From the IMG/VR virus record IMGVR_UViG_3300006162_000019, positions 1-48,760 of that record: DNA of 48,760 bases; one strand, given 5' to 3'. This document shows, one piece after another, positions 1 through 48,760 of the stretch. Positions within the stretch are counted from its first letter, which is position 1. The number at the start of each line of letters is the position of its first letter. The notes below the pieces were generated by a model that had not been told where the DNA came from, searched no databases, and saw only the letters and a program-made list of their open reading frames with translations. A program made the position numbers and the translations under genes. This stretch comes from a virus.

Positions 1-120
1 GAATGAGACAGAGTCCTGTGAAAATAAGTCCAGAGGGACCAAATTTTGTGACGACAAGATCCGCGATCACGATTGCTGCTAAATAGGTGGCAACTAAAAA
101 CGGACCCATCACTCACCCAT
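1..120. repeat. Left copy of 120-bp terminal redundancy (circle overlap)
   Basis: The first 120 bases are identical to bases 48641-48760. The reading frames continue smoothly across the join: the ParB-like gene stop and the transporter start overlap here. This fits an assembly overlap of a circular or circularly permuted molecule rather than a biological short terminal repeat. Unique length is 48,640 bp. Confidence 0.95.
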
Positions 121-777
121 GATATGATTGTCAGGAGTTTGGGCAAGGACCTGGAGCATTGCCTCAAAAGGCATCACCATTGAAACTTCTTTTGGGTCGT
201 CATCTGGATGAAGTATTTTTTTAAAACGAGTCATCTGCTCATCAAATTGCTCTTTCAGTTCGGCTGGCACCTTAATTTCAATCGTTTCCCACTGTTCACT
301 GTCACCGGACCCACCTCCAGGGCTAGAAGGTAAATTCGCCCAGTCGTCGCTAATTCCAGCAATAATTTGATCAAATTCAAAGTCGTGTACCGGCAAAACG
401 GACAAAATCTCTTCCTTTGACATCGATTCCAATAAATCGGTGTAAAGGTCTTTTAATTTTACTTTATCATCAGTTCCGTTGATTCGGTTGATTTTCTGAC
501 CAAGGAGTTCAGCTCTTTGCCTAGACATGGGCCCAAGGTTATTGACTACGATGGTTTTTTCACCCATCTCGCCCGCGGCCTTCCATCTGTGCTCACCATC
601 CACGATCTCAAGCTCGCCTTCTTCGTTCACCCTCACTAGGACTGGCAGGACTTGGCCCTCATCATGGAGCGAAAGCTTTTGTCTTTCGAAAACAAACTCT
701 GGTTGGACGTTAGGATTCCAAGGATTGGGCTTGATCTGATCGATCGGCAATTCTTGAATGTTGAAGTTTTTTTTCAT
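109..777 (-). CDS. ParB-like nuclease-fold protein of the DNA-modification cluster
   Basis: A 222-residue protein with an N-terminal ParB/Srx-type domain: the DQIKPNPWNPN segment near residue 15, then the GEHRWKAAGEMG signature near residues 62-73, followed by a helical middle and an acidic glycine/serine linker. Such ParB-fold proteins often accompany DpdA in phage 7-deazaguanine clusters; whether it binds DNA or cleaves nucleotides cannot be read here. I start at 777, not the upstream in-frame ATG at 789, because that ATG overlaps the GAGGTG ribosome site. It overlaps the dpdA end by 68 bp, and its TGA shares one base with the ATG of the transporter across the circle junction, so it is probably co-translated with both. 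Confidence 0.8.
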   Translation of the reverse strand: MKKNFNIQELPIDQIKPNPWNPNVQPEFVFERQKLSLHDEGQVLPVLVRVNEEGELEIVDGEHRWKAAGEMGEKTIVVNNLGPMSRQRAELLGQKINRINGTDDKVKLKDLYTDLLESMSKEEILSVLPVHDFEFDQIIAGISDDWANLPSSPGGGSGDSEQWETIEIKVPAELKEQFDEQMTRFKKILHPDDDPKEVSMVMPFEAMLQVLAQTPDNHIMGE

Positions 778-1681
778 GTGGCACCTCATAAGGCTTTTTT
801 GTGTTTAGTTTTAATTGGTATTTTTGAAATGAAGTTGCCGAAAAAACAAGCTGCAAAAAGTAGTCGCGCTGCTTATCCGTCTTGCCGACTAAAAACTCTT
901 TCAGCTCATCGTTCTTTTCAATTAGAAGCTTTGTTTCTTCTTTAAAAAGATCCAAATATTTTTGATCCGATTTTCGGCCAAGATATTTTTGTTGTATCCT
1001 GCCATCCATGTAGAAGTGGCATCTTGCGTGTCGAACACAGTATGTCCATGAAGACGAGTCGCAGCTGTAGGCTGTATTTGTCTCCATAGTTTCCATAACG
1101 GTATTTCCAAGCAAATGAATCTTTGGTACTTTTCCAACATTTTTTTGAATCTTGTAAAGAAGATCATTCACGACATCTTGATATCTTGTTTTTTTATCTT
1201 TGCAAAGGATTCTAATTTCTGGAACCGAAAGAGCGATGTAGTTATATTTTTCAGCAAGTTTAAAAAGACCATCAATTGTCTCTTCTAAATGCCAAACGTA
1301 CAAAGTTGGTATTCCAGAGTCTTCAAAGTGTTTTCGAAACTCCCACAGCTGGTTGATTGGAAGTATTTTGTGTGTGTCCATCTCAACAATCGTTAAACGA
1401 TTTACACCAAATTGTTTTGCAGTTTTTATGTAGTTTTTAGTGTACTCAAGAAGTTCTGAATAAGAGTAGGTCTTACCCTTACCAGCTCCAAACATCATCG
1501 TGAAAAGTCCGGAGTCACAAATCACTTCTTGATCTCTTTTATTCATAAGGCTGAAAAGTGTTTTTGCATCCGACATTTTACTTCCTAAATGATAATAGGA
1601 AAATAAAATATTCTTGATGCCAGCAAAGCTCGACGCTTGATATGGTATCAAACCCTCACAGCCAGCCATAAATATCTTCAT
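710..1681 (-). CDS. dpdA: DpdA-like DNA-guanine transglycosylase (7-deazaguanine insertion into DNA)
   Basis: A 323-residue protein resembling the short phage DpdA enzymes, TGT-related base-exchange enzymes that replace guanine in DNA with a 7-deazaguanine. Seen directly: the N-terminal [10 protein letters not shown] strand, a conserved ICDSGLFTMMFG motif whose Asp56 would bind base or act in catalysis, and a CDSSSWTYCVRHAR segment in the C-terminal half typical of the family. The start overlaps the previous gene's stop as ATGA, indicating translational coupling. Its place after queD, queE, folE and a small T-fold-like gene gives the functional context: the upstream genes make the base and this protein inserts it. 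The exact inserted base and target motif are unknown. Confidence 0.85.
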   Translation of the reverse strand: MKIFMAGCEGLIPYQASSFAGIKNILFSYYHLGSKMSDAKTLFSLMNKRDQEVICDSGLFTMMFGAGKGKTYSYSELLEYTKNYIKTAKQFGVNRLTIVEMDTHKILPINQLWEFRKHFEDSGIPTLYVWHLEETIDGLFKLAEKYNYIALSVPEIRILCKDKKTRYQDVVNDLLYKIQKNVGKVPKIHLLGNTVMETMETNTAYSCDSSSWTYCVRHARCHFYMDGRIQQKYLGRKSDQKYLDLFKEETKLLIEKNDELKEFLVGKTDKQRDYFLQLVFSATSFQKYQLKLNTKKPYEVPHEKKLQHSRIADRSDQAQSLES

Positions 1682-2019
1682 ACTGAAAACTCCACAACAG
1701 CTGAGTTCTCGCCATCCTCAGACACCTCAATCTCCATATCGCGAAATCCGTAAGCGTTTTGAAGAAAAGTCAGGACTTCTTTTGCGATCATTTCGCAAGA
1801 CCATCCATTCATTTCTCCATCTTTAAATCTCTCTTTAAGTTTTCTTTGAACTAAAAAGAATTCAAGCTCTCTGTCGTCATGACTGACTTCGATTTTGGCC
1901 TCGCATTTAAATAAATGGCGGTGATTATGTCTGAGAAATTCAACATCAACAGGAGCATCAGCGTAAAAATGAAACCCTTCAAATTGCCACCTAACTATGA
2001 TTGAAGTCTTTGTCTTCAT
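1678..2019 (-). CDS. Small T-fold (QueD-like) protein of the 7-deazaguanine cluster
   Basis: A 113-residue protein. It looks like a minimal T-fold related to QueD: a [17 protein letters not shown] strand resembles the HGH zinc strand of QueD, a [12 protein letters not shown] helix resembles the PTAENLA helix, and EVSEDGEN near the end resembles the WETSN strand. The zinc and catalytic residues are only partly matched, so it may be a divergent enzyme, a regulatory subunit, or unrelated. It overlaps folE and dpdA by ATGA on both sides, so it belongs to the pathway operon. The T-fold assignment is inference from motif order; a fold search is needed to settle it. Confidence 0.7.
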
Positions 2020-2681
2020 CGAACTACCGTTTTTAAAAATTCAGTGCGCGCTGAGTGATCTGTTTTAAATACACCCCTGACATCAGTCGTGGTGGTCTCT
2101 GATTCCATATCTCTTACTCCACGGCTTATCACGCAATAATGCTTGGCCTTAATATGGACAGCAATATCCTCAGTCTCAAGAATTGCCTCTAAAGCATCAG
2201 CTACTTGTTTCACCAATCGTTCTTGGACTTGTGGTCTCTTTGAAAAGTAATCAACAATTCGATTGATTTTAGAAAGTCCAATCACCTTAGATTTTGGAAT
2301 GTAGGCCACCGTTGCGTAACCATCAATTGTCACAAAGTGATGCTCGCAAACTGAAAGAACTCTGATTCCATTTACTGAAACCATTTCGTTGCACTTCATT
2401 TTATTTTCAATGCAAGTGATCTTTGGGAAGTTTTCAGCTTTCAATCCAGAAAAGAACTCATGAACGTACATCTTAGCGATTCGCTTTGGAGTGTCCTGAA
2501 GTGAGTCATCTGACAAATCAAGCCCCAAGGATTGCATCACTTTTGTCATGTGATGGGTGATTCGAGCGACCTTTTGTTTATCGGTGAGCTTATTGTCCTT
2601 AAAAGGAGTTGGTGTGACTTGTGAAAGCCATTTCTTTACTTGATGTTCACGAACTTGTGAGTCTGAAGACTTACGCGCCAC
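2016..2681 (-). CDS. folE: GTP cyclohydrolase I
   Basis: A 221-residue type I GTP cyclohydrolase, converting GTP to dihydroneopterin triphosphate, the first step towards 7-deazaguanines and also folate. The diagnostic [12 protein letters not shown] motif supplies zinc ligands Cys112 and His115, and [12 protein letters not shown] supplies Cys183. The [17 protein letters not shown] helix is highly typical. The start is GTG at 2681, preceded by AAGGAGAA at good spacing. It overlaps the queE end by 46 bp, and its stop overlaps the next start as ATGA. A phage copy next to queD and queE points to base synthesis rather than folate supply. Confidence 0.95.
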
Positions 2682-3232
2682 TTTGGATTCTCCTTGATAA
2701 ATTGTTCAATTTTAGAAAATGATTCATGTAATTTATTAAATTCAGGACTGAGTGAAAGCCTTGCGTTTGGATTTAAATTCTGATGATTCTCAAAATACTT
2801 TGCATTAGCGAAATCAAAACCATCATCCACAACAAGCTTCAGTTCAGAGCACTTTTCAAGAGCATCTAAATCCACTTGATAGTTACTGTCTCTCTTTGGT
2901 GAAACAGTCACAAAATCAATTCCATCAACTATTGGAAACATCCCATTTGTTTCACAGGCAATTTCAAATCCAAGTTTTTTCAATTGCTCAATAATTCTTG
3001 GTGTCTGCTTATTCATCATTGGTTCACCGCCAGTGATGACTGCAAATTTTGATGGCTCGCCAAGAGCGTATTTTTCAAGATATGACTCTTCGTATTCCAA
3101 AAAAGTATTAAATTCAGTATCACACCAAGTGCATTTTAAATTGCAATACGGAAGCCTAACAAAGAGTGCCCGTCTTCCCCAGTGAGCTCCTTCACCTTGA
3201 AACGTCCAAAAAAGATCAACCAGCCTATACAA
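2636..3232 (-). CDS. queE: 7-carboxy-7-deazaguanine synthase (radical SAM)
   Basis: A 198-residue QueE, which contracts 6-carboxy-tetrahydropterin to 7-carboxy-7-deazaguanine (CDG) using a 4Fe-4S cluster and S-adenosylmethionine. Seen: the [20 protein letters not shown] opening, the cluster triad Cys30, Cys34 and Cys37 in [13 protein letters not shown], and the [11 protein letters not shown] glycine motif that binds SAM. The start codon is TTG at 3232, four bases after a strong GGAGGTG, and it overlaps the queD stop. The length matches short QueE enzymes. Motif agreement leaves little doubt about the reaction. Confidence 0.95.
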
Positions 3233-3650
3233 GTGACACCTCCACGAAGCAATTGCTCGTCTCCCAAAGTTTTATTTTCGTGATGGTGACTGTATCGTTT
3301 CTGAGCAAATAGTTTCCTTGCTCTAAAAGATACGAAGCTAAATTTTCAGCAGTTGGATTGAATGGAACAATGTAAGGCTTTTTAAGGCCATCACACTTTT
3401 GGATGTGAATAAGGTTTGGATCTTGGGCCCAAAGGATCATGTTGTGGTCCCAATGCTCATCAATCCAAGCACCGATCTTTTGTTTTATCACTCCAAAATC
3501 TATGATTCGACCAAGCTCATCCAGTTTATCGGCTTCACAGTAAATCTCAGCCTTGTATTCATGGCCGTGAAGAGTTCGGCACTTTGATTCATGGTTCACA
3601 ACCCTGTGACCAGCATCAAATTTAATTATTCGGACAGCCTGTGTTTTCAT
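3225..3650 (-). CDS. queD: 6-carboxy-5,6,7,8-tetrahydropterin synthase
   Basis: A 141-residue QueD of the T-fold family, turning dihydroneopterin triphosphate into 6-carboxy-tetrahydropterin. Zinc ligands are His15 (FDAGHRV), His28 and His30 (LHGHEYKAEIY), Cys24 is the catalytic cysteine, and Glu130 in KLWETSN is the substrate glutamate. An open frame continues further upstream, but the ATG at 3650 follows GAGG and begins the conserved domain, so I use it. It is the first gene of the modification cluster; about 180 bp separate it from the next minus-strand gene, so a promoter probably lies in 3651-3735. Confidence 0.95.
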   Translation of the reverse strand: MKTQAVRIIKFDAGHRVVNHESKCRTLHGHEYKAEIYCEADKLDELGRIIDFGVIKQKIGAWIDEHWDHNMILWAQDPNLIHIQKCDGLKKPYIVPFNPTAENLASYLLEQGNYLLRNDTVTITKIKLWETSNCFVEVSLV

Positions 3651-3735
3651 TAAAACCTCAATAGTAGTTTGATAGTTTTTAAAGGTTTTCGCAAAAAAGG
3701 CTTTCGCGCAAGACATTTCTGTGTAAAATGGGCTT

Positions 3736-3900
3736 ATGGTATGTAAAAGCTGCAATGGACGAAAAAAGCTGGTTCGCACTCGAAGTGGAGCCTATTTGCC
3801 TAAACGATTAGCAGATGAGCTTGAAGAGTCTCGTCAGCGGATCTCAACACCCAAGCCGTCTGCTGAAAGTGTCACCAAAAAGCCGCCCGCTTCCAAATGA
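3736..3900 (+). CDS. Possible 54-residue Zn-binding-like protein on the plus strand
   Basis: An isolated plus-strand frame inside the only sizeable gap of this region. It opens MVCKSCNGRKKLVRT, a CxxC start reminiscent of small phage zinc-ribbon-like proteins, followed by a basic helical stretch. The last 67 bp are antisense to the 3834-4220 gene. No convincing Shine-Dalgarno sequence was seen; a TAAAAT box lies just upstream at 3724-3729, which would allow a nearly leaderless message. It may be real or chance, and the minus-strand neighbour is the better-supported gene. Confidence 0.35.
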   Translation: MVCKSCNGRKKLVRTRSGAYLPKRLADELEESRQRISTPKPSAESVTKKPPASK

Positions 3901-8243: not shown

Positions 8244-8252
8244 CGTCTCTCC

Positions 8253-8687
8253 TTAATATTTCGAGTAAACAGCCAACACAGACTGTCCGGTGGCAGGTGC
8301 AGTTGTCATTGTAATCACAGCTCCAGAGATAGTGTAGTCATAAGATGCTCCAGCAGTCAAAAGCTGCCCATCTAAGTAAACAGTCACACCATTTGTTGAG
8401 GCTGGGGTTGCAGTCATCGTGAAGGCAGTTCCAGATCCGTTTCCAAAAAATAAGTCCTGGTTGTATTGAACGGACACCGGAAGGTTTGAAAGAGTGTTTG
8501 AAGAGCCTGAAATTGTTTTGTTTGTGACAGTTTGGCTTGCTGAGTCTGACAGGATATTCGACCCAGTCGACGGAACTGAAAGACTGGTTCCGCCCGTGGA
8601 GTTCGTTATTGTATCGATCTGCTTCGACGTTGTTGATGACGCAAAAGCAGACCCACTGATAAAAATAAAAAATAACAATAATTTCAT
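8253..8687 (-). CDS. Short signal-peptide-bearing fibre-like protein
   Basis: A 144-residue protein with a Sec signal (MKLLLFFIFISGSAFA), then a module STTSKQIDTITNSTGG...VPSTG...SQTVTNKTISG that is clearly related to the N-terminus of the next fibre-like protein (8697-9815). The C-terminal about 70 residues form a beta module with a VTVYLDGQLL core and a TAPATGQSVLAVY end, the same small domain that occurs twice in the 9817-11241 fibre. ATG at 8687 follows AAGG. It may be a shortened paralogue or a subunit of a composite fibre. Confidence 0.75.
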   Translation of the reverse strand: MKLLLFFIFISGSAFASSTTSKQIDTITNSTGGTSLSVPSTGSNILSDSASQTVTNKTISGSSNTLSNLPVSVQYNQDLFFGNGSGTAFTMTATPASTNGVTVYLDGQLLTAGASYDYTISGAVITMTTAPATGQSVLAVYSKY

Positions 8688-8696
8688 CAACCAACC

Positions 8697-9815
8697 TTAG
8701 TTGCTTCGAGAAACTTCGTTCCAGAAACCATTTCCATCACAAGACAGAAGCAATTGACTATTTAAAGCACTGGTCCAGTTTCCATTCAAGTTCAATTTCG
8801 AACCGGCCAATGCCGAGTTGTCTTGCAGCTTCACTAAGTTGGTGGCCGATTCACCAATAACTGTCAGCATTTGTCCTGCTGCGGTACAAGCTGTGATTGA
8901 AGGAGTTGCAGTCACAGTTGTGGTACCAGCACCAGATGCCTGAATGAAAGCCATGTTCACATAAGTGGGAGTCGTAAGGACCACACCACCACCAGCAGTC
9001 ACAGAAAGTGGTGACCCTTGAGTGCCGCTTAAAGTTGGAGAATTGGATGCTGGAGCACTGCTTGTCCATGTTGATCCGTTTGAAGTAAGGACGTTTCCAG
9101 AAGTGCCTGGAGCAACCAAACTCACAGCAGATGTTCCGTTACCAACAACAACTGAACCAGAAGTCAAAGTGCTTGCTCCGGTACCACCATTTGCCACTGC
9201 CAACTGACCTGTTACGGCAGCTGATTGGCCTACGTTTACCGCTCCGAAAGCAGGAACACCACCAGAACCGGCTTGCAATACTTGATATTGCGAACCAGTC
9301 ACAGAAGTCACTGGCGAAGTACCAGCTCCAACTACGATTCCGTTAGATGTGATGCTTGAAGCACCAGTACCACCGTTTGCAACTCCGAGCTGTCCACTCA
9401 CCGCAGCAGCTTGTCCGAGTTGCAAGGCTCCAACAGTCGGAACACCAGATGCACCAGCTTGAAACACTTGATATTGAGAGCCCGCGGCTGTGATTCCCAC
9501 TGCCGAAGTACCGTTACCATAAACCATACCATTTGAAGTCAAAGTCGAAGCGCCAGTACCGCCATTCGCAACACCCAATTGACCAGACGAAATTGCCGAA
9601 GCAGGAATCGCCGTGAAGGTATTTGAAGCACCTGACATTGATTTATTTGTGAGAGTTTGAGTCGCACTGTCAGAGACTAAATTCGCACCAGTCGCAGGAA
9701 CGGCCAAAGCAGTTCCGCCAGAGGCGTTGATTGAGTCAATCTGCTTCGACGTGGTGGATGCTGATTGGGCTTCGGCCGTAACAGCTAAAGCCAAAATTAA
9801 AAGAATTCGCTTCAT
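8697..9815 (-). CDS. Signal-peptide-bearing fibre-like protein with VANGGTGAS repeats
   Basis: A 372-residue protein. Residues 1-16 look like a Sec signal (MKRILLILALAVTAEA). An N-terminal STTSKQID module shared with the 8253-8687 gene is followed by three repeats of 62-63 residues headed by GQL(G/A)VANGGTGAS, a hallmark of trimeric phage tail fibres, and a C-terminal module ending WNEVSRSN that is related to the end of the upstream 9817-11241 protein. ATG at 9815 follows AGGAG; the longer open frame upstream overlaps the neighbouring gene and is rejected. Probably a fibre or fibre-like adhesin. The export signal is the odd part. Confidence 0.8.
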   Translation of the reverse strand: MKRILLILALAVTAEAQSASTTSKQIDSINASGGTALAVPATGANLVSDSATQTLTNKSMSGASNTFTAIPASAISSGQLGVANGGTGASTLTSNGMVYGNGTSAVGITAAGSQYQVFQAGASGVPTVGALQLGQAAAVSGQLGVANGGTGASSITSNGIVVGAGTSPVTSVTGSQYQVLQAGSGGVPAFGAVNVGQSAAVTGQLAVANGGTGASTLTSGSVVVGNGTSAVSLVAPGTSGNVLTSNGSTWTSSAPASNSPTLSGTQGSPLSVTAGGGVVLTTPTYVNMAFIQASGAGTTTVTATPSITACTAAGQMLTVIGESATNLVKLQDNSALAGSKLNLNGNWTSALNSQLLLSCDGNGFWNEVSRSN

Positions 9816-9816
9816 G

Positions 9817-11241
9817 TTATTGTCTCCTTGTGTTTTCGTTCCAATTGCTACCGTCCCATTCGTAGTCAATTGATTGGTTATCGGTTAAGTTACACATTCC
9901 GTTCTGATTAACGCCATTTCCAGATGCACTGGAAATCTTCAAAAAGTTTATCGGATCAACTCCTTTTAATCTTAATAGTTGACCGAGCGTTGTTCCAGCG
10001 GCAATCGCCGGACTGGACGTTATCAGTTGGGCACCTGGACTGTTTGGCTTAACGTACCATGTCTGATCCATAGACGTTGTGGGGACAATTCCAATGGTTG
10101 GATCTATCAAAATGGGACTGACAAAATTTCCATGAACTTCTTTTGCGCCACCGCCGCCACCACTAGTTGATGGAGCTGTCAAAAGGTTGGGCCAAGAGTT
10201 CATCCAATATTGCACTTCGACTGGAGGTTGACCGTTTGCTGGCTGTGCTCCAGGATTGAATAAAATATAAGACTGCTGTCCAGTTTCAGAGACCAAGGCC
10301 CACTGGTCAGGGCTCACCCATCCGCCATCAACAAAAACATCGACTGCGGCCTGATAAAGTGGCTTTTGAGAGAGAGTGAATTTTTGATTAGTTCCATCGA
10401 CAGCGCCGACAGCCACCTCTGTGATTGCTTGAACTGGATTTTGAGAATTTGGAGAGTTCGCTACATAGGCACACCAAATATCCTGTCCAATTGCAAGTGG
10501 TGAAGAGAAAGAAATTATGTTTGTCGAAAGACTATAACTTCCAACTTCAGCCTTCAAACTATCAACATAGACGATCAAACTTCCATTTGTGATTGGCGAT
10601 TGAGAAAGAGTGTAATTTAAATTCACACCATCAATCGCACCGACTGGAATTTCTCTGACAAAAACTGGTTGCTGTGCAAATCCAAATCGAGAATACAATC
10701 GAACTGAATAGTCATAAAGAATTTCGGTGGCGTTTGTTGCTCCAGCTGGCACTTGAAGACCAGCTAAAATAAATCCAGTTCCAGTGTAGGCGGGATAGGC
10801 AGGACTTGCGTTTGGTATTCCTGGAATTATTTTTAAAATAAAATCATCATGTAAATTTAAATTTACAGTGGTGAGTGGATCAGATGGCTTTGGAATTGGA
10901 GTGTCTCCAACTTGAGCGTATTCAATAACAAGAAGGTCCCATCGTGGAAGTGAACCACCAACAGCGGGAGTGGCAATTGGACTTCCAGTCATTCCTGGCA
11001 AAATTGCAGTCAGATCACCAATAGTATCAAAACCAATTCCGTTTCCGACAGATATTCCCATATCGCCAGCATCAGGAGTGAGCACAAAAGGAGTTGGATA
11101 GATTGAAGTGATGAGGACACCTGGTCCCCACATTGAAACAGAGACAAGATCGATAAGGTCTTGCAAGCCCTGGACAGTAAATTCCATGTCCGTTTTATCA
11201 ACAAGTTTTCGATCTAGCGAGAGCCAATTCCGTTGCAACAT
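9817..11241 (-). CDS. Tail fibre / baseplate-attached fibre protein
   Basis: A 474-residue protein directly after the gpI/gp48-like tail gene, where Mu and P2 relatives carry their fibre. It lacks a signal peptide, unlike the next three genes. Around residues 190-350 there are two tandem modules with the pattern G(A/V).DG.N..(Y/F)TLSQ.P and V.VD, a common phage fibre domain. The C-terminus ends in YEWDGSNWNENTRRQ, matching the C-terminal module of the next protein. ATG at 11241 follows GGAGG. It likely anchors the receptor-binding apparatus to the baseplate. Confidence 0.75.
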   Translation of the reverse strand: MLQRNWLSLDRKLVDKTDMEFTVQGLQDLIDLVSVSMWGPGVLITSIYPTPFVLTPDAGDMGISVGNGIGFDTIGDLTAILPGMTGSPIATPAVGGSLPRWDLLVIEYAQVGDTPIPKPSDPLTTVNLNLHDDFILKIIPGIPNASPAYPAYTGTGFILAGLQVPAGATNATEILYDYSVRLYSRFGFAQQPVFVREIPVGAIDGVNLNYTLSQSPITNGSLIVYVDSLKAEVGSYSLSTNIISFSSPLAIGQDIWCAYVANSPNSQNPVQAITEVAVGAVDGTNQKFTLSQKPLYQAAVDVFVDGGWVSPDQWALVSETGQQSYILFNPGAQPANGQPPVEVQYWMNSWPNLLTAPSTSGGGGGAKEVHGNFVSPILIDPTIGIVPTTSMDQTWYVKPNSPGAQLITSSPAIAAGTTLGQLLRLKGVDPINFLKISSASGNGVNQNGMCNLTDNQSIDYEWDGSNWNENTRRQ

Positions 11242-14452: not shown

Positions 14453-15594
14453 ATTGCTTTTGCTCCACTGACAATCGTATTTAATTTGCAAAGGTGAAGG
14501 CGAGTGAGCATTCCTTGATCCTTTGTCAATTCATAGCTCACGCTATGAGTATACATGGTCTCTGAAACGTCTTCGTCCTCCACTTGGACATTGTAGGTCT
14601 GGTCAATATCATAAATCTCACCAAAGCTATTGATGTGACCCTTTACGACCGCTTCCACCTCAAGGATTTTCATGTTCTCTCTGGCAAGGAGCCTTCTTGA
14701 GTGTTCATATCCAATGTTGTTGTAGTTTCCACTCTGGTTTCCGACTTGATTGATGGTGTTCACCGAATCACCAGCTCCACCATAATCAAAGAATTGATAC
14801 ACAGATCTTCCAACTCCAATTTTAGAAACAGCCACCATATCATCATCACTATTTGTCATAGTGATGGTCCCTGGATCTGTTTTCCCAAGAGACTGAAGTT
14901 GTGTTGCAATCTTTCTGATCGCCTGATTTAAATTCCGCCTCACTCTGCACTCTAAAATATTATTGGAAGGATTGTTTGAAGCAAGCAGTATCAAATCACC
15001 AGAAGTGGCCTGAGCAAAGTCTGGTTTCCCGACAATCACCTGACCATTTTCATCTGACCAAATTAAAAGGTTTGCAAACTCAAGCATTCTCTGAAGAGCA
15101 TTGATCTTTGTCTCTCCGACATTAGATGAAAACAAAAATTGACCATTGGGAGCGTTTGAAAGAGTGAATCCTTGAGGACACCTTGTCCCATTCAAAACGC
15201 TTCCAATGATATTTGTTAGGCTCGCTTTTTCAAAGAAAATCACCTTGTTGTTAGCATCGACAGAAGCATTATCAGCAAGCTGCCCAAGGATGTCTCTGCC
15301 AGTCACCACGTATTCAACTGAATCTTTTCCGATATGGGAATCAGTCTCGTCAATGATTCCAATTGCAATTGGTAGCCTGTCGCCGTCTTTATTGTAAGCA
15401 AAAATTTGAACCATATCACCAGACCTGATGGCAAGCCTTGTTGCTCGATTCACTCCAGGAGCTGTGAAACGAAAAGCTGAAACTGGTGAAGTGATATTTC
15501 TTTCAAATTGATAGCTTGTGAACGTGACAATTTTCTCAACCGCTTGGGTTGGATCTGAGGCGCTGATAAATTCAAGCTCAAGTGGTGTTATCAA
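14449..15594 (-). CDS. Baseplate hub protein (Mu gp44 / gpP, gp27-like)
   Basis: A 381-residue protein matching the hub/late-control-D-like group by order and by motifs such as DMVQIFAYNKDGDRLPIAIGIID and YVVTGRDILGQLADNA, which recur in Mu P relatives. It would form the ring between the tail tube and the spike. The start is TTG at 15594 overlapping the preceding stop; no better ATG precedes the first conserved strand. Its stop overlaps the spike start. Confidence 0.82.
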   Translation of the reverse strand: MITPLELEFISASDPTQAVEKIVTFTSYQFERNITSPVSAFRFTAPGVNRATRLAIRSGDMVQIFAYNKDGDRLPIAIGIIDETDSHIGKDSVEYVVTGRDILGQLADNASVDANNKVIFFEKASLTNIIGSVLNGTRCPQGFTLSNAPNGQFLFSSNVGETKINALQRMLEFANLLIWSDENGQVIVGKPDFAQATSGDLILLASNNPSNNILECRVRRNLNQAIRKIATQLQSLGKTDPGTITMTNSDDDMVAVSKIGVGRSVYQFFDYGGAGDSVNTINQVGNQSGNYNNIGYEHSRRLLARENMKILEVEAVVKGHINSFGEIYDIDQTYNVQVEDEDVSETMYTHSVSYELTKDQGMLTRLHLCKLNTIVSGAKAI

Positions 15595-16892
15595 CTCGCT
15601 GGTACAAGCACCGTAGTGCCAGCCTCCACTCTGTTAACAGAAGGCAAAAATGGATTGAGCGCTTCAATATCATTCTGTCTTTCTGGAGCTAAATTATTTG
15701 CAAAAGCAATTTGTCTAAGGCTCATTGGAATTGTTGGAGTGTAAGAGATCACTTGAGTTTGAGCTTGAGACACACAAGCCTCTGTCAAATCCTGCACCAT
15801 GACTGCCATCTGACGATAATTGAAAATTGTATCGAATGAATAAACTCCAAGATTTGATTCAGCATCAGAGATAGCAGCAGAGATTGATGACCTGATAGAG
15901 TTGGCAGAAAAAATGGCCTGCTGAGTGGTCACTTGGCTTGCGTTCACAAAGGTTGACACCTGAGCTTGTAAAAGAGCTGAAGCCACCGGATCGTAACCAA
16001 CCTGCATGACTGGTGGAAGTTTGCTTGTGGTAGTGGTCCCAGCGTTTGAAACAGTTCCGGAGTTTAGATTTAAAACAGTCACTCCAGCTTGTGCTGCTTG
16101 AGCATTTGCCTTATTTGTAACCGCACTATGAGAAAAGGTGGCCGCATACTGAGCTTGAAGACCAGCGATTGCATCCGTGATTGATTTAAGTTTTAACGCC
16201 ATTGAATTTTGAATCGCTTTTGGAAGCAATAAAATTGCAGTCGCATCCGAGATGGCACTATTGATTGCTGACTGGTATTGAGAAAGTTTTGAAAGACCAT
16301 TTCTGATTGCTTGGTCAACACTTGTTGGCTTTGATGTATTTTGTTTGTCACCATTTAAATTTTGCAATTGAACAGAGTTGTCTTCAATGAAAGTCGCCTT
16401 AATTGTGATTGCATTTGATTCGTCATAACGATGAATGAAATCCCAGTCTCTAAATTTAACAGGGAACACACCACGAACAGGATGAATGATTTGTGCATCG
16501 CCACTGTACTTGGCGACGTTGTCCATAAAATTATCAAATCGTTCTTTGTATTGCAGTCCCCAGAATTTAATATTTACTGTGAACGTCTCACCTTTTCGCC
16601 CAAGGTCTGCCACTTCTTGTCCATCTCGGTACGGGTATTCATAAACAGCAAGCCTTCTCCCGCCAGTGTCGTTGATCTGGTCAACGGCCGTATTGCTTTG
16701 AATATTTTCCGGAATTTGACCAGCAGAGGCTGGAGCGCCCTTTTTTTCAAAAAAGAATACGACTGATCTTTGGACGTTGCCATTGGTGAGCTGCTGGAAA
16801 ATACCTCGCTGTAAATTCCAAAGCCCTTGCGATGGAGCGCCGTAAGGATTTGAGACGTTTGAAATTGAATTAATTAAGTCCGTCAGTCCCAC
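15591..16892 (-). CDS. DNA circularisation-type tail protein (Mu gp43-like)
   Basis: A 433-residue protein. Residues around 75-135 (GGRRLAVYEYPYRDGQEVAD then GRKGETFTVNIKFWG) are the hallmark of the 'DNA circulation protein' N-terminal domain found beside Mu-like tape measures. Despite the name it is a tail/baseplate component. The C-terminus (AFANNLAPERQNDIEALNP then AGTTVLVP) is LysM-like and may contact peptidoglycan or the hub. GTG start at 16892 overlaps the tape-measure stop in TAGTG. Confidence 0.87.
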   Translation of the reverse strand: MGLTDLINSISNVSNPYGAPSQGLWNLQRGIFQQLTNGNVQRSVVFFFEKKGAPASAGQIPENIQSNTAVDQINDTGGRRLAVYEYPYRDGQEVADLGRKGETFTVNIKFWGLQYKERFDNFMDNVAKYSGDAQIIHPVRGVFPVKFRDWDFIHRYDESNAITIKATFIEDNSVQLQNLNGDKQNTSKPTSVDQAIRNGLSKLSQYQSAINSAISDATAILLLPKAIQNSMALKLKSITDAIAGLQAQYAATFSHSAVTNKANAQAAQAGVTVLNLNSGTVSNAGTTTTSKLPPVMQVGYDPVASALLQAQVSTFVNASQVTTQQAIFSANSIRSSISAAISDAESNLGVYSFDTIFNYRQMAVMVQDLTEACVSQAQTQVISYTPTIPMSLRQIAFANNLAPERQNDIEALNPFLPSVNRVEAGTTVLVPAS

Positions 16893-18679
16893 TATCTAGT
16901 CCCCTTTACAGTTGAAGGATTTGTTAGCTGAACAGGCCGCTTCATGTAAGATTTCAGCATTCCAGTCTCAACCGCCTTAGCGAATTGCTCTGGAGTGAGG
17001 CTTGTGCCGTTTCTTTCATTAAAGCTTTGAGACATTTTTGCGTTTTGATTGGCTTGGGCCTCAGACATAGCTTTTTGCTGATCAGGGCCGAAAATATCAA
17101 AAGCCTTATCGCCAGCAGCATCAAGGACCTTTCTGGACGGCTCCCAGTTGTTAAGAGCCTCACCAATAGCCACACCGATTCCTGCGGCTCCTGCGACCGC
17201 CCCAGCCTTGCCAAGAGCACCAAGGGCACCGCCAGCAGCACCGCTGCCTCCACCAATTTCTGAAGCGTTTACCACGTAAACTGGTGTGGCTCCTGCGGCT
17301 TTTGCCATCGCCCCACCTACGGCACCCTTCATCATACCGCCGCCAGGGACATTTTTCATGATCTGACCAAGGCCACCACTCGTCATAAGAGCAGCAAGGC
17401 TCGCAAGCCCAAGGCCACCTGCCAGTGCTCCTTTATTGTCCATCATGGCACCGCCAGCCTGACTTAAAGATCCAAGTCCGCCTTTGAAATTGCCCTTCAT
17501 GAATTCATTGACAGCTTTTGACAGATCGTCCCCGACAATCATCACAGTGCCTTTTAATTTCTCTTTAAAGGTATCAAACTTGGTTGAAAAGTTGTCTGCT
17601 GCCACACCGAACTGATCGGCAGTTTCGTTGGCTCCTTGAGCAACAGCACTAAAATCACCCATGTTGTTTTTAAATGATTCCACCATTCGAGTGAGGTCAG
17701 CTCCACTCGCGCCAGACAATCCAGTCGCCTCACCCATGACAGATTCTGACATCTGACCAAAACGTCCAGTATTGATTTGTCCAAGTTGTGAAGGATCAAG
17801 CTTGCCGTTCTTAAAAAGACTTACACCAAGGATGCCATTTAATTGCTCTTGTCCGGCTTTGGTGGAGCCCTTTTCCATGATCTGTTTCATGACATTCAAA
17901 GAGCCTTCGCCGCCCTTGCTGGCAACGCTCGTAAGCCCTGAAAGGTCTCTTGTGCTCATGCCAGATTTTTTAGCAAAAGATGCCATCTCTTTCACAGCGT
18001 CCGCCATCTCACCTGCGGAGCCAAGAGCGCCCTTCACTCGACCACCTTCAAGAGCATCGAGAGTTTCCTTGAAGGATTTGGCCGTCACTTTCTGTCCTTG
18101 TCTTTGTAAGATTTCGACAACCGAATCAGCCAAGCCCTCAACATTTTCTTTTTCGTTAACGGCTTTGGATTGACCAAGCATTTCTGCAATATCAGCCAAC
18201 TGACCAGCGTCTTTGACATTCCCTTTGGCCGCTACTCGCTCCATTCCTGGCATGATGTTCTTCATCTCTTGCCCAGTGCCAGCGACCTTCATGATGGACA
18301 TTTTTTTGAACTCATTCATTTTATCAACAGAGAGACCAAGACGGGTGTTGAGCCTATCAAAAGCCTTCTCCATGTCAAAAATTTGCTCCACACCTTGCTT
18401 CATGTCCTTGGCAATGTTCATGCCTTCCATGAGGGCGTTAAGGCCCAAGAAGTTTTTCATGTCTTCTTTAAGGCGATTGCCAAGGTTTCGGAACACACTT
18501 GAAATTTTATCGGAAGTTTCCTGAGATTGAGTCTCAAGCTTTTTGAAATTTTTAACAGCTTCTTTACCGAGGGACTCTTCAATCTTTGATGCCATCTCTT
18601 TTGATTGAGAGGCAATTTCATTCAGAGCTGCGATGACTTTCTTTGGGTCTAAGTCTAATTCTAATTTTGTTTCAGACAT
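16892..18679 (-). CDS. Tail tape measure protein
   Basis: A 595-residue protein with a long helical N-terminus, and a hydrophobic glycine/alanine-rich centre (GGLGLASLAALMTSGGLG, then AGAAGIGVAIGEAL), typical of tape measures that set tail length and enter the host membrane on injection. It directly follows the frameshifted tail assembly chaperone, which confirms the role. ATG at 18679 follows TAAGGA. It is short for the family, implying a short tail. Confidence 0.9.
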   Translation of the reverse strand: MSETKLELDLDPKKVIAALNEIASQSKEMASKIEESLGKEAVKNFKKLETQSQETSDKISSVFRNLGNRLKEDMKNFLGLNALMEGMNIAKDMKQGVEQIFDMEKAFDRLNTRLGLSVDKMNEFKKMSIMKVAGTGQEMKNIMPGMERVAAKGNVKDAGQLADIAEMLGQSKAVNEKENVEGLADSVVEILQRQGQKVTAKSFKETLDALEGGRVKGALGSAGEMADAVKEMASFAKKSGMSTRDLSGLTSVASKGGEGSLNVMKQIMEKGSTKAGQEQLNGILGVSLFKNGKLDPSQLGQINTGRFGQMSESVMGEATGLSGASGADLTRMVESFKNNMGDFSAVAQGANETADQFGVAADNFSTKFDTFKEKLKGTVMIVGDDLSKAVNEFMKGNFKGGLGSLSQAGGAMMDNKGALAGGLGLASLAALMTSGGLGQIMKNVPGGGMMKGAVGGAMAKAAGATPVYVVNASEIGGGSGAAGGALGALGKAGAVAGAAGIGVAIGEALNNWEPSRKVLDAAGDKAFDIFGPDQQKAMSEAQANQNAKMSQSFNERNGTSLTPEQFAKAVETGMLKSYMKRPVQLTNPSTVKGTR

Positions 18680-18682
18680 TCC

Positions 18683-19281
18683 TTAGTCCCCTCTGTTCGC
18701 CAACTCCTCTTTAGCTTTCGCGTAGTCCTCGGCTTCAAGTTCGTTAACTGCTTTGTTCATCACTGCCCACCAAAGGAGCTGTCCATCTGTGATGTTTGGA
18801 AGTCCACTCTTTGGATCAAATCCTGAAACGCTAGAAATATTGCCCTGAGTTGCCTTAAAGACAATTCTCTCGAGCCCACCGCGTTTTTTTTTACGGCGTG
18901 AACCAAAGCTTGGAACTCATCAACGCTAATTCTCTCCAGTGAAGGATTCGCGTCGTCCATAATTTTAACGTACTCTTCATAAAGCCACTTCAACTCATCA
19001 CTGGTCATTAAGTTCAACATCGGAAGCGGTAGCTCTTTGCTTGCTAAACAGAGAGTTGACATCTGAATGAAGTTATTTTTTTCAGTCTCATCACCGCCGT
19101 ACTTCATTGCTTCGGCGATTGCCTTTCTGCGAATTTCCATCTCTTCATGTCTTGTTAAAACTCTGAAGTGAATTGAAGATCCACGGAAGGAAACCGACCC
19201 AGCGTACTTTGCGCCTTCACGAAATTTCGCTAGGCGCTCCTCAACAGTTTCAATTCTTTTATGTTCTTGGTTCATCGTCAT
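18683..19281 (-). CDS. Tail assembly chaperone, -1 frameshift extended product
   Basis: A slip of -1 on the heptamer A-AAA-AAC (18889-18883) joins the first 132 codons to a 67-codon frame that has no stop until TAA at 18685-18683, just before the tape-measure ATG at 18679. The extension starts KRGGLERIVFKATQGN and ends EELANRGD. The geometry (canonical slippery site, -1 direction, open extension reaching the tape-measure gene) is that of lambda G/GT-type chaperones. Neither the stimulator structure nor the slip rate can be judged from sequence. The same strand and operon as tube and tape measure support it. Confidence 0.82.
18760..19281 (-). CDS. Tail assembly chaperone, short (unshifted) product
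   Basis: A 173-residue protein between the tail tube and the tape measure, the place of the gpG-type chaperone that coats the tape measure during tail assembly. It is charged and helical. ATG at 19281 follows AGGAG. Near codon 132 it contains an A9 tract read GTA-AAA-AAA-AAC, where a fraction of ribosomes are expected to slip back one base to make the longer product described separately. Confidence 0.85.
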   Translation of the reverse strand: MTMNQEHKRIETVEERLAKFREGAKYAGSVSFRGSSIHFRVLTRHEEMEIRRKAIAEAMKYGGDETEKNNFIQMSTLCLASKELPLPMLNLMTSDELKWLYEEYVKIMDDANPSLERISVDEFQALVHAVKKNAVGSRELSLRQLRAIFLAFQDLIQRVDFQTSQMDSSFGGQ

Positions 19282-19297
19282 GTGGCACTCCTAACGA

Positions 19298-19729
19298 TTA
19301 GCCTTGTAACAAAGAAAGCGAAGTTGAGAACAGAGCCGAATTTCCAACTTGGTCAATGATGTCAGTGGCAAGCATATTGAAAGCCTTTTTGCCTTCAGAG
19401 CCAACACCACCAGCAGATTGATCCGCGTCTACGAAGTCAAGGCCCGTGCAAGTGTAACGGTCACCACCATGAGAGAAAGTGAGAGCTACGTCTTGAGAAT
19501 TGTAATCAATCGACTCAAGCTTTGGTGTTCCCAAGGTCGCTTGAACTGCTACCGCGAAACTCAGATTGATGTCCAAGTTTCCTTTCACAGTCCCTTTGTG
19601 ACGGCGATTGGTTGTCATGGTTGGAACATACTTAGTTCCGTATGACATTTTCAAAGTGATATTCTCAACGTCTAGGACTTCCACGCCGTTGATTGTCACT
19701 CTGCCACGATCAATAAATAAAACGCCCAT
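19298..19729 (-). CDS. Tail tube protein
   Basis: A 143-residue protein following the sheath gene, the standard order in contractile tails. It is beta-rich, beginning MGVLFIDRGRVTINGVEVLD, with KYVPTMTTNRRHKGTVKGN resembling the loop region of Mu-type tubes. It would polymerise as hexameric rings around the tape measure. ATG at 19729 follows GGAGG closely. Confidence 0.82.
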   Translation of the reverse strand: MGVLFIDRGRVTINGVEVLDVENITLKMSYGTKYVPTMTTNRRHKGTVKGNLDINLSFAVAVQATLGTPKLESIDYNSQDVALTFSHGGDRYTCTGLDFVDADQSAGGVGSEGKKAFNMLATDIIDQVGNSALFSTSLSLLQG

Positions 19730-19746
19730 TGAAAACCTCCGTTAAA

Positions 19747-21177
19747 TTAAAGTGTAAACACCGAAGCCGAAACCACTCCCTGAATATTCCCTGCGATAAC
19801 CATGAGGCCAGGAATTACATTCACTGGAATGTAGAAATCAAAACGCCCTGTGCTGTTCACTTGAACAACGAACTGAGAAGCATTTTCTTTCACGTTTTGG
19901 AAAGCACCTTGAGCTTGGAAAAGAAGAGCTTCGCGAAGAACCTCATCTTTAAAAGCCGCTGCAACATCAGCAGATGCCATTGTTCCACCAGGATTGTTGT
20001 TGAATGGTGGATTTTGAGAAATCTGATAAACCACTTCGCGGAAATCATAAAGAGTTACGATTTGCTGCCAATCAAAATAGCTGTTCACTGTAATGTTGGC
20101 TGGAGTGGTTGTGTAGGTTGTGCGAGTTCTGATGAATACAACATTGCCGCCAGGAGCAACAGTCAAAGGCGAAAGGCCAGCTTGAAGAGCCGCTTCCGAT
20201 GCGCCAGCTGGGTCCCAATCAATAATGTCTGAATGTTTTTGTGGAGGCAAAATCCCACCGAGCACAACATTTGCGCGAGGAGTATAAGGAAAAGTTGAAG
20301 CCAATTTTCCAGCCGCCGCTGCCGCTGCAATTAGCTCTGGAGCTTGAGAGACCATGTTTTGGAAACCAATTGCTTCAGACGGCTCAGTGGCCGCGGCCAA
20401 AAGAGCTTGTCCATTTACATCAACCATTGTCACAGTCGAAGAAGTCACTTGACCAACTAAAGCACCAGCAGGAACACCAGTTCCAGAAATTGCAGCACCT
20501 GGATAGATGCCAGCAGTTGAAGCAAGGCCGCTAATCACATTCGTTCCGATAGTCAAAGCACCATTTTGAGTCACAAGTGCTGTGTTTGTGTCCGGAAGAG
20601 ATTCGCACATCACATACTGAGAATTGATATCGTAAGCAAGTTGAGTAGTGAGAGCATCAATGCTTGCCACCTGAACAAAAGATCCAAACTGACCTTTTAA
20701 ATCACGATCTGGACCAGAAATTGTGATCGCTAGATTTTTCAATTTCAAAAGATTGGCTGCATCGCTTGCTGGATAGCAGGAAACTAAAATGTCGCTTCGT
20801 AAATTCTTCACAGCAACTAAGGCTGGATCACCAGCACCACCAAAGCTTGTGTCAGAAAATGCCAAGAAGCAAATTCTGAAGGCTGGATAGTTTGCGTTTC
20901 CAGAGAGCACGTTTGAATTTACAAAAGCCACCGCCATTGCCGAGGCCTGAGAACCAACACCCGCAATTGCATCAATCTCAGTTTTCACCGCTACTGGGTC
21001 ACCGACGTTGATCACGCTGTAGACTTGTCCAGGAATACCACTTCCAGGAACAGCTGCCATGTGAGCAAACAAGGTTGCAAATTTTCGACCAACCGCAAGT
21101 GCCTGACTGCCGTAAGTGATTTGCAAAGGTACGCTCGGTGTAAGTCTTGCTCCGATTGTGTCTAAAACTTGTGCCAT
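19747..21177 (-). CDS. Tail sheath protein (Mu gpL-like)
   Basis: A 476-residue sheath. The C-terminal half carries the typical order: PYTPRANVVLGGILPP, then VVFIRTRTTYTTTPAN, then FDWQQIVTLYDFREVVYQI, and a final beta strand for inter-subunit mesh. An inserted glycine-rich region near residues 215-265 (TLGTNVISGL-like, ISGTGVPAGALVGQV) looks like an extra surface domain. Sheath contraction drives the spike into the host. ATG at 21177 follows GGAGG. Confidence 0.9.
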   Translation of the reverse strand: MAQVLDTIGARLTPSVPLQITYGSQALAVGRKFATLFAHMAAVPGSGIPGQVYSVINVGDPVAVKTEIDAIAGVGSQASAMAVAFVNSNVLSGNANYPAFRICFLAFSDTSFGGAGDPALVAVKNLRSDILVSCYPASDAANLLKLKNLAITISGPDRDLKGQFGSFVQVASIDALTTQLAYDINSQYVMCESLPDTNTALVTQNGALTIGTNVISGLASTAGIYPGAAISGTGVPAGALVGQVTSSTVTMVDVNGQALLAAATEPSEAIGFQNMVSQAPELIAAAAAAGKLASTFPYTPRANVVLGGILPPQKHSDIIDWDPAGASEAALQAGLSPLTVAPGGNVVFIRTRTTYTTTPANITVNSYFDWQQIVTLYDFREVVYQISQNPPFNNNPGGTMASADVAAAFKDEVLREALLFQAQGAFQNVKENASQFVVQVNSTGRFDFYIPVNVIPGLMVIAGNIQGVVSASVFTL

Positions 21178-35443: not shown

Positions 35444-36925
35444 CTAGAAAATTGTCCCTGATCCATGTCCAGAGAGAGGCATCCTTAGTATTCCACCTTT
35501 TCTCAACTCATCAAGGGCTTGGCTTGTTGCGTCCACTTGGTCATCGTTTGCTCCCGCAGGAAAATCACACAACTCTTTTACGTAGTCTCTCACCCAAGGA
35601 GCAATTTGTGGATCGGGCAAATAGACATTCCTTGATTCAAAGTCAGGGCTTACAGCGTTCAATCTTGCCACCTTATCGCCACGCGGTTCAATCTCAATAA
35701 GTCCAGAGATGGTGTCTTTTAAAGTTTGGACGATAGCCGGACCATTGGCTTTACTTTCGATCAGTTTTTTATGGGCCTGTGGATATTGCTTGGAGACTTC
35801 GATCAGTTTTTGAAGAGCGATCGGAAAAGAGAATCGTCCGCGGACTTGATGGACTAAGTATTTGTTGGCTCCGGTGACACCCCAAACTTGTCCGACTGTG
35901 AAGTCTGAAGTGGTCTTGTCCTTGGTGGCAAAATCCCAAGACTGAATCATCCGATCAAATCTCTGCGGAAGTGCCATGTAGTATTGGATTTGATCGGCCT
36001 TCACGATGTTACCACCTTCAACAGTGGGCTCTTGCTGCCAAAGTGAGTACCAGTCCCGAAGTCCCATCGATTTAATTTTCATCAGGTTTTCGTGATTGAA
36101 CTTATCCTTCCAAAGCGGCTCATTCAGCTCTCGTGGATCAATTGGATTTTTGTCATTTTCTTTGATCGCTGGAAGGCTCACGACAGTCCATTGGTCGGCG
36201 GTCTTATCATTCTCAGCCAAGCGAAGAAGTCTGCTCGCTAAATCATCATCGTGCCACCTTGTGAGCGTGATGAGGATTGATCCCTCACCCTCCATCCTTG
36301 TGCGGAGCGTTGAGGTGTAGAAATTCCAAAGTGTCTCACGAAAGACCTTTGAGTCAGCATCTTCACGATTCTTGATTGGGTCATCTATCAGGGCCCAGTT
36401 CGCTCCACGGCCGGTGAAGGAGCCTCCAACACCGCTTGATTTGTAACTTCCAGTGTACCAGGACCAAAGCTTGTCTGGGTGCTGATAGGGAACAATCTCG
36501 TGCTCAGATCGCGTACGAGAATACTTGCTGCTGCTATTTTGGGCAATTCTGACAGTTGGGAACAGTTTTTGGTACTCTGGAGTCTCCATGATCCGCTGAA
36601 CGTCCACTGTCATGTCTCCGGCCAGCTCCGCATTGTAAGACACCGCCAGGATTTCATCGTTCGGGTATCGGCCGTGAATCAGGGCCGGTAGTCGCCTAGA
36701 CGTAAGCTCAGACTTTCCATGCCTTGGTGGTTGAAAGATCATAAGCCTTCGGATTTCTTTATTTAAAAACTTGTCAAGATAGTTACAGGTGAGCTCATGG
36801 TGCCAGTTCACCTTGTATCCAGGGAATGTGAATTTGGTGAACTCGAGCAAATTCTTTTTTGCCCTCAGTTCAAACAGTTTCCTTCTGACCTGGAGTTCGC
36901 GGAGCAGAATCTCATTCTTTGTCAT
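35444..36925 (-). CDS. terL: Terminase large subunit
   Basis: A 493-residue packaging motor. ATPase: Walker A QPPRHGKSE at residues 65-73, Walker B NWALIDDP with Asp181-Asp182. Nuclease: Asp331 in QSWDFATKDKTTSDFTVGQ and the C-terminal NDDQVDATSQAL, the RNase H-like metal site of the Terminase_6C group. ATG at 36925 overlaps the small subunit stop as ATGA. It packages the concatemer through the portal. All key residues are present. Confidence 0.95.
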   Translation of the reverse strand: MTKNEILLRELQVRRKLFELRAKKNLLEFTKFTFPGYKVNWHHELTCNYLDKFLNKEIRRLMIFQPPRHGKSELTSRRLPALIHGRYPNDEILAVSYNAELAGDMTVDVQRIMETPEYQKLFPTVRIAQNSSSKYSRTRSEHEIVPYQHPDKLWSWYTGSYKSSGVGGSFTGRGANWALIDDPIKNREDADSKVFRETLWNFYTSTLRTRMEGEGSILITLTRWHDDDLASRLLRLAENDKTADQWTVVSLPAIKENDKNPIDPRELNEPLWKDKFNHENLMKIKSMGLRDWYSLWQQEPTVEGGNIVKADQIQYYMALPQRFDRMIQSWDFATKDKTTSDFTVGQVWGVTGANKYLVHQVRGRFSFPIALQKLIEVSKQYPQAHKKLIESKANGPAIVQTLKDTISGLIEIEPRGDKVARLNAVSPDFESRNVYLPDPQIAPWVRDYVKELCDFPAGANDDQVDATSQALDELRKGGILRMPLSGHGSGTIF

Positions 36926-38230: not shown

Positions 38231-38306
38231 TGGCTGGACAAGTTGGACTCGAACCAACGACCTTTCCGTTAACAGCGGAATGCACTACCAACTGTGCTAC
38301 TGTCCA
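38231..38306 (-). tRNA. tRNA-Asn (anticodon GUU)
   Basis: A complete 76-nt cloverleaf. The acceptor stem TGGACAG pairs with TTGTCCA (one G-U), D stem GCAC/GTGC, anticodon stem TTCCG/CGGAA with loop CTGTTAA (anticodon GTT), T stem GTTGG/CCAAC with loop TTCGAGT, discriminator G and an encoded CCA. GUU is one of the four queuosine-site anticodons, of interest in a phage carrying 7-deazaguanine genes. Confidence 0.96.
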
Positions 38307-48236: not shown

Positions 48237-48749
48237 TTAATGATGCCTCAATCCATTAATTTTTCTTAAAACGGCCACAAAAATGAGCGACCAAATGAAT
48301 CCACCGGCTATTTTTAGGCCAGTTTGGCTTGCGGCAATAAAATAATTTATGGACCCAAAGGCCACCAATTGAAAACAAAATGAGTCAGCCAAAGACGCTA
48401 GGACGTTACTCAGATTCATTTTAACAAGCTTGGATTTCTCGATTAAAACGCTATAGACCGCATAATCGATGGTGCCAGCGATGAGAAAGCTCACCCCGCT
48501 TGCAACGCCTATCCTGCGCGATTCTGGATTGATTAAATAGGCAATCAAACTCCCAGATCCAATTAGGAGTATCATTTTGATCCTTAAATAACCGCCACGC
48601 CATAAATCCTGGAGCTGGTCCCTAGAAATCAAATCAAAAGGAATGAGACAGAGTCCTGTGAAAATAAGTCCAGAGGGACCAAATTTTGTGACGACAAGAT
48701 CCGCGATCACGATTGCTGCTAAATAGGTGGCAACTAAAAACGGACCCAT
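48237..48749 (-). CDS. VUT-family transporter, probable queuosine-precursor importer (YhhQ-like)
   Basis: A 170-residue membrane protein with about five or six hydrophobic segments: MGPFLVATYLAAIVIADL, LIFTGLCLIPFDLISRDQL, IKMILLIGSGSLIAYLI, VASGVSFLIAGTIDYAVYSV and GGFIWSLIFVAVL. The family imports preQ0, preQ1 or queuosine in bacteria. ATG at 48749 shares one base with the ParB-like gene stop; GTG at 48752 is less likely. As the last gene of the 7-deazaguanine operon it may feed precursor to DpdA. A span with FDLISRD and N-L-x-S-L-x-D is family-typical. Confidence 0.83.
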   Translation of the reverse strand: MGPFLVATYLAAIVIADLVVTKFGPSGLIFTGLCLIPFDLISRDQLQDLWRGGYLRIKMILLIGSGSLIAYLINPESRRIGVASGVSFLIAGTIDYAVYSVLIEKSKLVKMNLSNVLASLADSFCFQLVAFGSINYFIAASQTGLKIAGGFIWSLIFVAVLRKINGLRHH

Positions 48750-48760
48750 CACTCACCCAT
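48641..48760. repeat. Right copy of 120-bp terminal redundancy
   Basis: Identical to bases 1-120, closing the circle. It contains the 5' part of the transporter gene and the end of the ParB-like gene. Confidence 0.95.

Follow-up and report, generated by a model that had tools for sequence, protein, structure and literature searches.

A VUT-type permease in a phage DNA-modification operon as a candidate auxiliary supplier of 7-deazaguanine-type bases

The viral record IMGVR_UViG_3300006162_000019, analysed here over its full 48,760 nucleotides (the window), encodes a VUT-type permease, vut, as the last gene of an operon that also carries dpdA, a ParB-like gene, genes of 7-deazaguanine synthesis and a gene for a 113-residue protein of family phrog_17812 (Q113). 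We conclude that this phage-type permease probably serves as an auxiliary feed of base to the DNA-modification operon, and is not a patch for an absent QueC. Import or recapture of base is the role we favour because VUT genes are repeatedly linked to dpdA, because they also stand beside QueC, because Escherichia coli offers a precedent, and because Faecalibacterium phage Roos holds a module of the same kind. In the mechanism we propose, FolE, QueD and QueE would convert GTP to 7-carboxy-7-deazaguanine (CDG), and Q113 would convert CDG to the base employed, probably by decarboxylation to 7-deazaguanine. DpdA and its ParB-like partner would then swap guanine in phage DNA for that base, while VUT would import or recapture free 7-deazaguanine-type bases and so enlarge the pool during infection.

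A seven-gene operon across the record ends

The first 120 bases of the window are identical to the last 120, which closes the record into a circle of 48,640 bp. On this circle seven minus-strand genes follow one another head to tail across the record ends in the order queD-queE-folE-Q113-dpdA-parB-like-vut. The features concerned are as follows.

1..120: terminal repeat, 120 bp, identical to 48641-48760; circularises the record
48641..48760: terminal repeat, second copy, 120 bp
48237..48752 (-): vut, six-helix VUT/COG1738-type permease of a short phage branch, 170-171 aa; start probably the ATG at 48749, which is position 109 of the circle
109..789 (-): ParB-like protein, candidate DpdB-type partner of DpdA; Pfam ParB_N 1.7e-9; stop overlaps the vut start
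710..1681 (-): dpdA, DNA transglycosylase resembling tRNA-guanine transglycosylase (TGT-like); phrog_887 queuine tRNA-ribosyltransferase 8.9e-22
1678..2019 (-): Q113 (phrog_17812), QueD-fold protein in the QueC position, 113 aa
2016..2681 (-): folE, GTP cyclohydrolase I; Pfam 2.1e-62; NCBIfam equivalog 321.6 bits against a cut-off of 202
2636..3232 (-): queE-like radical SAM enzyme, 7-carboxy-7-deazaguanine synthase; phrog_2076 6.5e-31; TIGR04508 1.2e-32, under the equivalog cut-off
3225..3779 (-): queD, 6-carboxytetrahydropterin synthase; PTPS 8.6e-29; phrog_2389 2.5e-43; real start possibly downstream of the first GTG

All six junctions overlap, by 8, 46, 4, 4, 80 and 1 nt in order from queD to vut, lengths that are counted from the listed starts, some of whose true positions may lie further in. 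At the last junction, the stop of the ParB-like gene and the start of vut share one base on the circle (TGA/ATG, in GAGTGATGGG); a GTG start one codon earlier would lengthen this overlap to 4 nt. An earlier note on this DNA had placed the permease gene at 48237-48749, with its start over the ParB-like stop across the circle junction and in one unit with dpdA and the base-synthesis genes. The coordinates are right, the identical ends and the TGA/ATG overlap bear out the junction, and the overlaps and the gene order of a second contig uphold the coupling. The operon is translationally coupled and one of DNA-base modification, and its overlaps suggest that the seven genes are transcribed together. 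Promoter and terminator scans of the operon region returned sites no more numerous than in shuffled sequence.

In that second viral contig (L185), which is independent of the window, all seven genes recur unbroken and in identical order, and there too the start of VUT overlaps the stop of ParB. Because the run is uninterrupted there, the adjacency of parB and vut across the window's junction is real. Two further contigs (L184 and L103) hold the seven genes in a rotated order, Q113-dpdA-parB-vut-queD-queE-folE, with parB and vut again overlapping; an assembly artefact at the circle junction is ruled out by these three contigs. The two orders differ in whether the synthesis block comes before (window, L185) or after (L184, L103) the Q113-dpdA-parB-vut block.

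VUT, dpdA and Q113 in other phages

VUT loci in other phages were collected by sequence patterns, and the counts hold for the sample thus obtained; absences from viral contigs are soft, since such contigs are frequently fragmentary. Outside synthesis operons, 76 of 88 VUT genes (near-copies included) had a same-strand dpdA no more than 200 nt away, as in the annotated examples PEAT2, AB3P2 and Bunnies. In the dereplicated set used for the tree, dpdA was nearby for 26 VUT genes and undetected for 8. A renewed search of the loci lacking dpdA with phrog_887 gave no match, and it also missed its positive control, Bunnies, in which an annotated DpdA-like gene stands beside VUT. When whole records were searched, QueE was missing from all nine other VUT records of a first set and present in only 6 of 35 in a second. 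Hutinet et al. (2019, PMC6884629) had described YhhQ homologues, likewise VUT-type proteins in phages with deazaguanine genes, and reported them to be uncorrelated with any particular group of phages; here, in contrast, VUT mostly adjoins dpdA and recurs inside folE-queD-queE operons. Within synthesis operons it sits mostly between Q113 or QueC and QueD (24 of 38 loci, some contigs being counted twice).

We also gathered operons by QueE only, a sample that is blind to all other genes and comprises 52 dereplicated phage operons with DpdA. QueC alone was present in 33, Q113 alone in 13, both in one and neither in five (Fisher P=1.7e-7); under clustering by QueE identity at 60%, 50% and 45%, this exclusion gave P values of 1e-4, 0.04 and 0.14, respectively, the numbers becoming smaller at each level. 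Because QueC and Q113 alternate at one operon position, Q113 appears, from gene content, to substitute for QueC as the route by which CDG is used. QueE occurs in 11 of 11 reference phages that have Q113, Roos aside, and in only one of them did a QueC-family match exceed the cut-off. Cellulophaga phage phiST resembles the window in its QueC-less queD-queE-folE-Q113 cluster, and differs from it in having no phrog_4899 VUT match. The parB(dpdB)-dpdA-queC-queD-queE cluster of mycobacteriophage CRB2 (PMC6392294) is alike in gene order and likely function, but relies on QueC, and its description mentions neither VUT nor Q113, both of which the window has.

A ParB-like gene adjoins dpdA in 41 of the 52 operons. 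Such genes were suggested to be possible DpdB homologues in the CRB2 study (PMC6392294), and DpdB has been described as a ParB-like ATPase that works with DpdA (PMC12839542); by analogy, the ParB-like protein of the window fits a role in base insertion.

Q113 itself is probably a CDG-processing enzyme. Its structural model (predicted local distance difference test, pLDDT, 95.6) aligns with E. coli QueD at Z 13.0 and a root-mean-square deviation of 2.4 over 109 residues. It has a T-fold with the three histidine metal ligands of the QueD/PTPS type, the QueD zinc ligands (H17, H33 and H35, invariant in 45), together with a glutamate equivalent to the base-binding Glu110. Compared with the catalytic residues of E. 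coli QueD, the Cys27 position is changed and the Asp70-His71 loop is absent, so Q113 does not qualify as a QueD enzyme. Our best guess is that Q113 is a CDG decarboxylase making 7-deazaguanine, an idea that comes from DpdL, a putative counterpart of Q113 that Cui et al. reportedly predicted in 2023 to be a CDG decarboxylase.

In Faecalibacterium phage Roos (L006, 4825-7556), a ParB-like gene, Q113, DpdA and a full-length VUT lie side by side, and the complete record gave no QueD, QueE or QueC match. Because these genes are missing from the record, the Roos Q113 must, on sequence grounds, act on a host-made or imported compound, and Roos, a phage in cultivation, apparently carries a module fed by import or by its host.

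Roos lends weight to a sharper form of the reading that we favour, in which VUT mainly imports CDG or 7-deazaguanine, so that Q113 and DpdA could work where synthesis is slow or missing. An earlier proposal counts CDG among the vitamers that the YhhQ, QueT and QrtT families can salvage (PMC6593275), and at 90% dereplication VUT was commoner in Q113 operons (4/13) than in QueC operons (1/33; P=0.018). This enrichment vanishes at 60% QueE identity clustering (P=0.28) and is not claimed; moreover, the Roos host could itself make CDG, and the reaction of Q113 on CDG is only putative. We consider this form possible, at tentative strength. Among genome assemblies, 18 loci held Q113, some with FolE, QueD or QueE nearby and none with a VUT match. 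A shade more doubtful is a broader account in which phages recruited VUT repeatedly to feed free CDG or 7-deazaguanine to a Q113-DpdA module, as the sole supply in some (Roos) and beside a complete phage pathway in the window. If it were true, the base for which the permease is specialised would be none of preQ0, preQ1 and queuine.

A different explanation, put forward in the earlier note, starts from the missing QueC: VUT would import preQ0 or preQ1, which the phage could not make without QueC, and DpdA would insert the imported base. QueC is indeed missing. The QueC profile (PF06508) found no match in the window record up to E=10 in searches that recovered positive controls, an absence established on a record whose two ends match, and a QueC hidden elsewhere in the record is thereby ruled out. 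E. coli YhhQ carries both preQ0 and preQ1 (PMC11130926), and the many phages with VUT and dpdA that lack any synthesis genes need a host-made or imported base. However, Q113 takes the place of QueC in the operon, and VUT is found in other operons together with QueC (L039/L200, PF06508 E=5e-60; L263; L264; L267), including operons with a complete queD-queE-queC set. Synthesis of CDG through FolE, QueD and QueE would also be pointless if imported preQ0 alone were used. Compensation for QueC thus fails as the main reason for import, and preQ0 or preQ1 as the imported molecule is unlikely. The spans that hold QueC and VUT together (5208-6492 in L039, 3263-4658 in L263) are natural controls for the role of VUT. 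The earlier note had further held that synthesis and import together are redundant unless the phage cannot make the imported molecule or host import competes, and here the E. coli precedent speaks against it: that bacterium keeps YhhQ alongside a complete de novo route, and salvage is thought to be cheaper when a precursor is available (PMC5372724).

A distant VUT protein with a predicted six-helix fold

The closest profile to the window VUT was Pfam Vut_1 (PF02592; E=4.8e-6), in agreement with the family proposed in the earlier note. It also matched phrog_4899 (E=6e-27), and all 32 aligned VUT relatives matched PF02592, the best at 3.4e-15. Membership of the window protein in the VUT family is real but distant. 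It shares with E. coli YhhQ/QPTR (COG1738, PF02592) the Vut_1 profile, six helices, the lack of an adjacent energy-coupling factor (ECF) ATPase and a link to 7-deazaguanine genes; unlike YhhQ, it is phage-borne beside dpdA and has 170 residues against 221.

The AlphaFold2 model of the protein has six long helices, as a six-transmembrane-helix protein should (mean pLDDT 95.4). Its top PDB matches were nearly all S-components of ECF transporters (riboflavin, biotin, thiamin, metals; Z about 8-11), with RibU, BioY and ThiT at Z about 10-11. This likeness is by fold only, a sequence search against solved structures having given no significant match to any chain, and the S-component-like fold is suggestive only. 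COG1738 is grouped by TCDB with the ECF S-component class (PMC5372724).

Several observations weigh against an auxiliary feed of base by this permease. The Vut_1 score of 27.4 bits only barely exceeds the cut-off of 27.2, the NCBI equivalog for queuosine precursor transporters (TIGR00697) scored 17.4 bits against a cut-off of 50.95, and BLASTP against E. coli YhhQ was not significant. The Z values to S-components lie under the level trusted for helical membrane bundles. The protein also carries Asp17 (48699-48701) where its relatives have a nearly invariant asparagine, from which a change of specificity is possible, such that its substrate may differ from those of known members. Finally, in the sample blind to VUT, only 5 of the 46 operons with exactly one of QueC and Q113 had VUT. 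Because most operons sampled without regard to VUT have none, VUT is optional in synthesis operons.

The window VUT is 44-45% identical to the VUT proteins of L185, L184 and L103. The tree places it among 20 rows that form a supported set (98/99), nearly all from synthesis operons with Q113. Synthesis operons hold two types of VUT, a short one (window, L103, L184, L185 and L023) and a full-length one (L220, L235, L242 and L263), the latter also found in Roos, and the two types occupy separate supported parts of the tree. It would follow that either VUT joined synthesis operons on two or more occasions, or one form displaced the other. A scan of bacterial genomes with the conserved motif of the short branch found none.

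Two other functions merit brief mention. VUT might export either the guanine that DpdA displaces or an excess of toxic intermediates, and its operon position and the dpdA linkage would then be expected as well; characterised relatives serve salvage import, and guanine is presumably readily reused by cells, which leaves export very improbable. That VUT is a passenger membrane gene unrelated to base supply would suit the many synthesis operons without it, and is the least credible of all, set against the frequency with which VUT adjoins dpdA, two VUT branches in one operon type and identical gene order in distant contigs.

Elsewhere in the window (15591-21177, 35444-36925 and 38231-38306), the phage encodes a contractile tail (tail sheath, baseplate hub), a terminase and one tRNA-Asn; the terminase large subunit is about 40% identical to that of Proteus phage RS51pmB. 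Tail-fibre-like proteins at 5946-9869 have signal-peptide-like N-termini, and one has GVANGGTGAS repeats, which is unusual in phage structural proteins.

Implications for phage DNA modification

The tight linkage of phage VUT to dpdA, and the presence of two VUT branches in such operons, are new here, and the linkage contrasts with the 2019 report of no correlation with phage group. The argument that a missing QueC implies import is corrected. The linkage to dpdA, and the recurrence of an operon with either QueC or a QueD-fold protein at a single position, make it possible to test from genomes which 7-deazaguanine a given phage uses. Roos, PEAT2, AB3P2 and Tbat1_6 are named phages in which import-fed DNA modification could be tested directly.
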